Assembly: GCA_002284615.2 (NCBI GenBank)
Contig: MU069450.1
Coordinates: 791,237-823,450, forward strand
Source of the DNA: Dunaliella salina
Taxonomy: Eukaryota; Chlorophyta; Chlorophyceae; Chlamydomonadales; Dunaliellaceae
DNA length: 32,214 bases
Reading direction: 5' to 3'
Below the pieces are notes generated by a model, which ran no database searches, had not been told where the DNA came from, and worked only from the letters and a program-made list of their open reading frames with translations. Position numbers and translations under genes: made by a program. Of the stretch, positions 26,042 to 29,200 are shown one piece after another (positions within the stretch are counted from its first letter, which is position 1; the number at the start of each line of letters is the position of its first letter).

Positions 26042-26245
26042 TCAGGAGGCCTCCTCCTTCCCTGCTTGCGTGAGCTCGCTGAACTTTTTACCCATCAAAG
26101 GGTCAGGGCTGGCACTGAATCTACCTGTGGCCCCCCGCCAGCCCCCCGTGTCCAGAGAGTAGCCCCAATCACACTGCGTCTCAATGTCGCAGTCAGATGT
26201 CGGCCTCGCCATGCACAGTAATGCCATACCCTGCTCCAGCTCTTC
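26042..26245 (-). CDS. Ferredoxin last exon
   Basis: Acceptor ctgcgtgcag, phase 0. It encodes EELEQGMALLCMARPTSDCD, IETQCDWGYSLDTGGWRGAT, GRFSASPDPLMGKKF and SELTQAGKEEAS, then TGA at 26044-26042. It carries the fourth cluster ligand (C in ALLCMA). Of the four versions of this exon start in the gene, it is the only one that continues into an open C-terminal extension. Confidence 0.92.
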   Translation of the reverse strand, partial: EELEQGMALLCMARPTSDCDIETQCDWGYSLDTGGWRGATGRFSASPDPLMGKKFSELTQAGKEEAS

Positions 26246-29200
26246 CTGCACGCAGGCCAGGCAAGCCATCAAAGCCTAGTTAAACGTTGGCCTCGCCATG
26301 CACAGTAATGCCATGCCCTGCTCCAGCTCCTCCTGCACACAAACCAGGCTGCCATTCAAGCCAAGTCAGATGTCGGCCATGCCATGCACAGTTATGCCAT
26401 GCCCTGCTCCAGCTCCTCCTGCACGCAGGCCAGGCATTTCATTAAAGCTGATCAAGAGCACTGCGTCTTATCGTCACAGCGTCTGTTGTCTCCAGTGCGC
26501 AGTATTACCTTGAGCGACTTCTGAGTAGTCACTTTTGTGTAGCATAGGTTCCAAAGAACAAAAGGCATTTATTTATTCGCCAAAAATAAAAAAAGGGTTC
26601 AAAGAAAAAAATTTCTCCATGTATCCAGGAGGGTAGAGTTTGTGTAACTTTTGGACGGCAACTGTCAATCCGAACAAAAACTACATAATCGGAATCCTGA
26701 GCTCGAGAGCTACCGATTGGCATATATCGGGGGGGGGGGGGGGGGGGGGGGGGGGGGGGGGGGGGGTCGGGGGGATTCCGATTATGTAGACTTTTTGGGA
26801 CCCCCCCTCTAGAATTTTTCTGAGCGACTTCCACAGGAATTTGAATATATTGTTGGATTTCTGGGCTCAAGAGCTGTCGATTGGCACCCTCTTAGTGCAG
26901 ATTGAGTAAAAGGGTGGGTCTGTGTGCGTGGCTGGGAGTCAGTGCCAAGCGCGCGAGGGTCTGAGCAGCAAGGGGTGTGGAGGCAAACATGCAGCATATC
27001 AATCCAAACTCCCAGGATAGTGACAACAAATGACGTGTCCTTGCTTGCTGAAATCAGGAGGGCAATTTGTGGACTCACATGCCAGTTCTGGGTACCTGGT
27101 AGGGCAGGTATGCATGGGCGTCCGCTCCTCAGTTTTTGCCCAATAACTCTGCTGGGACTCAATATTTCATTACGCTGAGTCTGCAGGTTGACAGCTATTT
27201 GAAAGAGGAGCAGATTGGCACCCTTGTTGTCGGGGGGGGGGGGGGGGGGGGGGGGGGGGGGGGGGGGGGGGGGGGGATGGTCAGGGGGGTCCGACCCAAA
27301 ATTGACACATGCCGTCCTTAGAAAATTTATTTCCACCCTCCTGATGTATCAAACATAAAGTGGTGACAAACAAGAGACTTAAACAATTTTGTAGTGCAGT
27401 GATGACATGATATGGCAAAATCAAACCTGCAAAGCCGAAAGATGTGAAGTATTTTATTTATCAGAGGGATGGTACACAAGTACAGGAAGAGAGCATTATC
27501 AGACGTAAGCAGAATTTAAAACAACGGTCACGCGCAAGGAATTGCAAGAGTGGTTACCAGCTGCAATGGCATTAGCATGAACCAAGCAGATGTCGGCCTC
27601 GCCATGCACAGTAATGCCACACTCTGCTCGAGCTCTTCCTGCAAGCAGGACAGACAAGCTGGTGCACCTACCTCGGGCACAATGAAGGTGATGTCAGCAA
27701 ATACATCACTCTGGTCAGTACTACCTTTGGCCATGCTCACCACACACAAGCCGAAGGTGGCCCCCAACCTGGTGGACCTACCTCGGGCACAGTGAAGGTG
27801 ATGTCTGCAATATCACTCTGGTCAGTGCTGCCTTTGGCCACGCGCGCTACACAAGCACCACAGATGCCCCCACGGCATGTTGAGGGTAGGTCTATGCCAT
27901 TCTGGTCAGCAGCATCTGCATCAGAACAGGAAGTTTAGGGACATGGCTCTGGTATGTTCAGGCCATGCTGGTCAGCAGCATCTGCATCGGAACAGGAAGT
28001 TTAGGGACATGGCTCTGGTATGTTCAGGCCATGCTGGTCAGCAGCATCTGCATGAGGATGGTAGGGCCAGGTCATTCTGGTCAGGTGCGTATGGATTTTG
28101 GATGTTGGGCTCACGCAGCAAGTGAGGGCTTGCACACACAGAAGCAGGAAACTGTGTGAACTCACAAATCAAAGCCTTCCACAGTGCAGCAGTAAAAGCA
28201 TTTTAACAAGATCATGAATATTTTTTACTGATAATGAGAATCATGGCTGTGAATGAGTCACGATCACATGATGAGGACCTCTAAATTTGGTGGCCCCGAC
28301 CTTTCTGGAGTTAAGGGTTTGAAAATGCCTACTTGAGACATGTACAGCAATGTACCCTCACCCGACCTTAAAATTGGCGGTGATTTGTTAGAACTTGGCA
28401 AGTCACCAAGTGCAAGATTTCTTGGCAGAAGTCTTGCGCTTTGACGGATGGCTTCCCTGCGTCACTTGCAAACTTGAAATTGATGACCACTTGCTGGCAA
28501 CAGTTGTAACCAGAACCTTTGGCTGACCATTCAAAGCATCATCCTGAATGCCAATCTCATCATTTTTACTCCCCACGCTTCTGCTGCACACACCTTCTTC
28601 ACTTTCATCACTTTTTTTTTTTAAATGCCACTTTGTTCGAGGCTGTCCCTTTAACTACAAAGGTTCCTCAAGGCTGGAAGACAGAGGTTGCAGTGCCTCT
28701 GGTACCCGATATACATGAGCTGCTATCGAAGACACCTGCCGTACTGCCATACTGCTATCAAAGACACCTGCCGTATCGAAGACATCTGCCGTACCAAAGT
28801 GGAAATTTTGACTGGAGATTTCTCGCAGTGATTTCCTTTTCATGTCATTTATGTCATAGAATGTATGCCAACCTTGCGCAGGGGCCATGCTAATCTCCTC
28901 TGTATCGTTCCAATTTTAACATATGTCCCGCAGGACGTTTACATAGAATGGCAGGCATTGATCCTGTGGTGGCACAAAATTTGGGGACCACCGCAATTGC
29001 TTTGTGCCATTCTACATGAATGCCATCAGAGACATTGTGGGGAAAAGCAAGGCACACCTTGCCCTTGAAGGCTGTATGCTCTCCAACCAGCAGCCTTGTG
29101 CACAACCACAGGGCACAGGGCAACCCTGAGACAAATTGTTAGCATTAGCTTCCCTTCCCTTGCTTTCTTTTCCCTTCCCTTCTTTTCTCTTTCCTTCCCT

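Follow-up and report, generated by a model that had tools for sequence, protein, structure and literature searches.

Short tandem duplications cross about one in eight sampled splice junctions of Dunaliella salina without preference for junctions

Results

A ferredoxin gene and a homoserine kinase gene with copied exon edges

The window, that is, the whole stretch of 32,214 nucleotides analysed here, comes from Dunaliella salina (GCA_002284615.2, contig MU069450.1) and lies at 791237-823450 of its contig in a genome of 285 Mb and 1403 contigs. Its minus-strand gene at 31383-26042 encodes a plant-type 2Fe-2S ferredoxin, and its plus-strand gene encodes homoserine kinase. The named best relatives of ferredoxin exons 3 and 4 were from green algae, for example Chrzof1 (labelled FDX3), Chlamydomonas, Gonium, Volvox and Haematococcus. 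We performed spliced alignment of 26001-31450 with three relatives (P0021, P0036 and P0037). The results showed identical introns with each of them (31200-31045, 30968-27916 and 27781-26246), indicating that exon 3 is 27915-27782 and that exon 4 starts at 26245, in agreement with the borders given in an earlier sequence-only reading of the window. For homoserine kinase, spliced alignment gave an exon ending at 898 and exons at 1700-1771, 3379-3508, 6157-6233 and 10490-10588. The exons and copies discussed below are as follows.

31201..31383, minus: ferredoxin exon 1 (transit peptide region); intron start at 31200 from spliced alignment, ATG read in the sequence
30969..31044, minus: ferredoxin exon 2 (spliced alignment)
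28050..28084, minus: older copy of the start of ferredoxin exon 3 (28/35 identical)
28017..28082, minus: second 66-bp copy of the exon 3 acceptor edge (repeat comparison)
27951..28016, minus: 66-bp tandem copy of the exon 3 acceptor edge (63/65 identity)
27782..27915, minus: ferredoxin exon 3, with intronic copies of both its acceptor and donor edges (spliced alignment, repeat scan)
27655..27746, minus: exon 3 donor-edge copy that lies about 110 bp downstream of its original and retains GTAGGT (repeat comparison)
27639..27671, minus: 33-bp interval running from GTAGGT of the donor copy to TTGCAG of the farthest acceptor copy, read directly
27584..27668, minus: farthest copy of the exon 4 acceptor edge (repeat comparison)
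26364..26448, minus: copy of the exon 4 acceptor edge with an early in-frame stop (repeat comparison)
26278..26362, minus: copy of the exon 4 acceptor edge with an in-frame stop after 18 residues (repeat comparison)
26042..26245, minus: ferredoxin exon 4, the last coding exon, with three intronic acceptor-edge copies (spliced alignment, repeat scan; stop codon read)
3379..3508, plus: homoserine kinase exon followed by partial copies of its donor edge (spliced alignment)
3708..3764, plus: partial donor-edge copy of exon 3379-3508, GT lost in a 6-base gap (repeat comparison)
3824..3874, plus: copy of the end of exon 3379-3508 that stops at the junction (repeat comparison)
9551..10482, plus: array of nine TTTGCAG-bearing repeats resembling the last-exon acceptor edge (exact-word search)
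10490..10588, plus: homoserine kinase last exon (spliced alignment)

The sequence-only reading had described the acceptor edge of ferredoxin exon 3 as repeated twice more at 66 bp, its donor end as duplicated at 110 bp, and the acceptor edge of exon 4 as present four times, and all three descriptions held. The exon 3 acceptor units lie at 27885, 27951 and 28017; adjacent copies are identical at 63 of 65 positions, and both 66-bp copies reach a stop after 15 residues. The exon 3 donor copy (27746-27655) matches the original at 78 of 89 aligned bases and lies 107-110 bp away, the range being due to a 3-bp indel. The exon 4 acceptor edge starts at 26245, 26332, 26418 and 27638, with the copies at offsets of -87, -173 and -1393 bp. 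AG or GT is intact in all six ferredoxin copies counted. The 33 bp at 27639..27671 may be the remnant of a once shorter ferredoxin intron. A genome search with the single region 27700-28100, in which very common words were skipped, matched only that region itself.

At 27896-28047 (minus strand), once the 66-bp stretch of 97% identity has ended, the copies of exon 3 still have GLNIPEPC in place of GIDLPSTC of the exon, as if an older, more diverged copy of exon 3 had been partly overwritten. Intron 3 also holds two runs of about 45 G (26729-26774 and 27232-27276), and the flank of the latter resembles, by eye, part of 7300-7900.

The sequence-only reading had reported the same kind of duplication at two homoserine kinase exons. 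Donor-edge copies of exon 3379-3508 do exist, but neither 3708-3764 nor 3824-3874 cleanly spans the junction. The stronger case in this gene, absent from that reading, is the array at the last acceptor, which reads TTTGCAG in the intron followed by GTCAGTGAAGC in the exon. Exact-word search found nine upstream copies of TTTGCAG (first at 9551, last at 10340) within about 940 bp, seven of the nine being followed by CTCAGTGAA or ATCAGTGAA, and in the diagonal scan AG was kept in 5 of 8 partner offsets. A junction was called spanned when a duplicate covered at least 10 bp on each side. The figure of at least five junction-spanning duplications in the window, given in the sequence-only reading, stands as a count of copies, but the junctions spanned by the strict criterion are four: the exon 3 acceptor, exon 3 donor and exon 4 acceptor of ferredoxin, and the last acceptor of homoserine kinase.

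Two further features of the window were recorded. The box of U6 spliceosomal RNA reads ACAGAGA. A full-length match to this RNA (RF00026, 73.7 bits) lies at 28838-28936 on the minus strand, inside ferredoxin intron 2 and on the same strand as the gene; it reads ACAGAGG and is perhaps a pseudogene. The long open frames at 11658-15625 and 21813-22172 (both plus), of which one carries a YADD motif like that of reverse transcriptases and the other a stretch resembling an endonuclease, are by motif what we take to be probable non-LTR retrotransposon remains.

Local tandem duplication is widespread in the sampled genes

We sampled 33 stretches of the same genome, 27 by protein homology alone, two beside the window and four at random. 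Genes were chosen without regard to repeats; kinase homology gave 66 exon matches, from which 13 loci were taken. Four of the 33 loci consisted entirely of N (two random ones and two beside the window), two random loci had no gene model, and others were partly N. Gene structures were built with a purpose-written spliced aligner that was checked on ferredoxin. It modelled 154 introns, three of them those of ferredoxin, and 39 were removed by a quality rule on alignment score on both sides, GT-AG borders and absence of skipped residues. Four homoserine kinase introns were added by hand, with the doubtful first intron of that gene excluded. Because blastn self-comparison missed the 66-bp and 110-bp ferredoxin repeats, a diagonal scan took its place.

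The results showed that local direct duplicates make up 15.7% of 241,665 non-N bases (diagonal scan, 30 loci including the window). The same scan placed 0.6% of 210 kb of E. coli in duplicates, a weak control since this bacterium has no such introns, and found no such duplicates in second-order Markov shuffles of eight loci (73,095 bases). The duplicates of the window are not chance. Within 3 kb, blastn gave 439 direct versus 15 inverted matches, an imbalance more in keeping with tandem duplication than with dispersed repeats. The 439 direct matches had a median spacing of 300 bp and no strong preference in spacing modulo 3 (156, 151 and 132). Their identity quartiles were 74, 80 and 85%, with the 5th to 95th percentile at 70-94%; this spread points to a continuing process and argues against assembly stutter.

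The background is uneven, as 4 of 30 loci have less than 2% of their bases in duplicates. The two readable random loci had 0 and 2.2%, too few for a comparison of genes with non-genes. Within gene loci, duplicates cover 19.6% of introns and 13.6% of the sequence outside the aligned gene span. Both copies overlapped exons in 4 of 384 matches (two in locus L052 and two in L026). Across the 27 modelled loci outside the window, 5,223 non-exon bases were recognisably derived from exons, a count that includes exons of models failing the quality rule.

Junctions are spanned often and without preference

In 25 genes outside the window, 27 of 224 well-supported junctions were spanned (12.1%; exact 95% interval 8.1-17.1%, junctions being treated as independent). 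Three of the 27 belong to L052, a weak model, and leaving it out gave 24/218. At least one spanned junction was found in 15 of the 27 modelled genes and in 13 of the 25 outside the window, so the duplications are a widespread habit in this genome, as the sequence-only reading had supposed, and not a quirk of two genes.

That reading had also suggested a process centred on junctions and had asked for a comparison of duplicates at junctions with those elsewhere. We rotated positions within genes 2000 times, which gave 25.1 ± 4.5 expected versus 27 observed (P of at least the observed count 0.39); junctions showed no enrichment, an outcome that the sequence-only reading had itself named as refuting its suggestion, and for this sample a junction-centred process was rejected. 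With the two genes of the window included, 31 of 238 junctions were spanned versus 28.6 ± 4.9 by rotation. Matches from blastn gave 24 spanned junctions versus 27.7 ± 4.7 expected (1000 rotations), and a looser first blastn count, made before the quality rule, gave 26/272. By point, the diagonal scan spanned 12.1% of junctions, 16.9% of intron points and 9.5% of exon points, and the blastn version 10.7% of junctions versus 19.6% of intron interiors. Compared gene by gene (n = 27), the junction rate was higher than the intron rate in nine and lower in nine. Since observed and rotated counts are about equal, junctions are neither preferred nor clearly avoided.

Copies lie on the intron side of spanned junctions

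Among the 31 spanned junctions (window and L052 included), the partner copy lay upstream of the acceptor in 16/16 and downstream of the donor in 15/15, and one acceptor and one donor had a partner on the other side as well; absorption of the copies into introns predicts this pattern, but a protein-guided spliced aligner would favour outer sites anyway and partly forces it, so the pattern alone is weak evidence. The median length of introns with a duplicated junction was 1202 bp (n = 26) versus 410 bp without (n = 93), a difference that is no proof of lengthening, because longer introns give duplicates more room.

We then compared splice signals in the copies with those in control sequence, with L052 left out. 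AG or GT was kept in 49 of 57 copies. Copied acceptors had an intact AG in 33/39 (0.846) versus 0.820 for intronic AGs in duplicates, and this comparison depends on the control (0.858 versus 0.754 per point; 0.829 versus 0.907, the opposite direction, at GCAG sites). Copied donors had an intact GT in 16/18 (0.889; 18 copies from 13 junctions) versus 0.656 in the intronic control. This donor excess is roughly of the size expected if only the real site were under constraint; it could also mean that some donor copies are used in splicing. Divergence of the copies at codon positions 1 and 2 was lower than on the intron side (0.244 versus 0.337 per junction, Wilcoxon p 0.01; pooled 0.242 versus 0.265), which one-sided constraint would explain, as would use of some copies. 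Codon positions 1-2 and position 3 diverged by 0.246 and 0.274 (p 0.21).

Special conservation of copied splice sites (divergence of 0.096 at the sites versus 0.242 at codon positions 1-2) was considered and set aside, as it largely vanishes against intronic AG and GT controls, with the donor difference remaining.

Duplicates do not link donors to acceptors

The sequence-only reading had further proposed that the duplications possibly generate or move introns and splice sites. We compared donor with acceptor in register in 116 introns. None of the 116 had a duplicate linking its donor to its acceptor, which speaks against that proposal, and the mean identity was 0.268 versus 0.257 for pairs from different introns. 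AG preceded the donor in 62/116 introns and GT followed the acceptor in 46/116; the two occurred together in 20/116 versus 24.6 expected from the margins, so their co-occurrence is not beyond chance.

One intron of the 116, at 5604-6079 of locus L047, reached 61% donor-acceptor identity in register. Although of low complexity, it is a candidate case of intron birth by duplication.

Discussion

In this study, copies of exon edges were found at splice junctions in 15 of the 27 modelled genes. The duplicates are direct and frequent, show no preference for junctions, and leave a copy on the intron side of each spanned modelled junction. We consider it probable that random short tandem duplication, with absorption of border-crossing copies into introns and no change to the mRNA, is the best explanation. 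Short tandem duplications, likely produced by slippage or unequal exchange, would land in genes at random and without regard to splice sites. An event crossing a border would leave an extra copy of the exon edge inside the intron, and splicing would likely join the outermost sites, donor and acceptor, and yield the same mRNA. Duplications inside exons would probably be purged by selection. The extra copies would likely drift neutrally while the intron grows and carries decoy splice sites. Judged from these comparisons of sequence, duplication likely lengthens existing introns instead of making or moving them. It is possible, though we hold it only tentatively, that in this algal lineage this amounts to a one-way ratchet, in which every event is absorbed through the dominance of the outermost splice sites, introns go on receiving edge copies and decoys (up to nine at one acceptor) from their own neighbouring exons, and which would be a main cause of the length of the introns.

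Other explanations bear on the same data. A process aimed at junctions that copies exon edges, for example RNA-mediated or transcription-coupled repair, would suit the copies that two genes of a single window carry at several junctions; it is highly improbable given that neither detection method found enrichment over rotated positions in the 25-gene sample and that, of 27 genes, nine had a higher junction rate and nine a lower one. Creation of introns by duplication, as in the AGGT tandem genomic duplication model, is very unlikely for these introns. Donors preceded by AG and acceptors followed by GT are common, the trace could be lost from old introns, and the low-complexity intron in L047 is at 0.61; against this stand the absence of linkage in register among 116 introns, their near-background mean identity, and the lack of co-occurrence of AG donors and GT acceptors beyond chance.

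The copies might instead serve, or once have served, as alternative exon starts retained for the sake of protein diversity. The high retention of AG or GT would agree with this, as would the older exon 3 copies, whose DQHGLNIPEPC and DQNDLALPSSC (the latter by eye) are close to DQNGIDLPSTC of the exon. We regard this as unlikely, as an early in-frame stop occurs in two of the three exon 4 copies and homology of the remaining one ends with the copied part, retention of acceptor signals is similar to that in control intron sequence, and the difference between codon positions 1-2 and 3 is not significant. Errors in the assembly or a merging of haplotypes are extremely improbable: the two long homopolymer runs in ferredoxin intron 3 are hard to assemble, but errors would be expected to be near-identical, and the 439 matches have an upper identity quartile of 85%. 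Random tandem duplication with absorption into introns is thus the reading we prefer.

If about 1 in 8 junctions has been copied in this way, the genome offers a natural experiment on how the spliceosome chooses among look-alike sites. It would equally be a natural experiment on whether duplication explains the length of introns in such algae, for which the available passages of PMC8226300 settle on no cause. For gene finding, homology searches in this genome will pick up pieces of exons that are in fact copies inside introns.

Introner elements are many near-identical introns at unrelated sites; the one region searched against the genome (27700-28100) gave no second place. Tandem genomic duplication has been discussed as an intron source (reviewed in PMC3443670; Rogers 1989 and Hellsten 2011, as cited in PMC3443670 and PMC4974935). 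That model resembles our case in that a within-gene tandem duplication doubles the splice signals; it needs an intron running from one copy to the other, whereas here this was seen in 0/116 introns. Internal gene duplications were found to be common and sometimes to include introns (Gao and Lynch 2009, as cited in PMC4974935 and PMC3443670). The copies described here are likewise direct and local within one gene (439 versus 15 inverted), but most are intronic or border-crossing and spare the coding sequence. In core-Reinhardtinia algae, introns lack the usual short peak and the mechanism was left open (PMC8226300). These are also green algae with long introns; the passages available from that study propose no cause in tandem duplication, whereas duplication is a candidate cause here.

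A close likeness is the potato RdRp gene (PMC4974935), in which a tandem duplication across an intron-exon border gave a new intron and a changed transcript. There, too, a border-crossing duplication takes acceptor signals along, but the outcome was a new intron in one gene, whereas here the copies lie within existing introns at about 12% of the sampled junctions. Our literature search, which was thin on subscription journals, found no report of such copies at a stated share of a genome's junctions. Single border-crossing duplications are already published, and what may be new here is the share of junctions that carry them, about 12%.
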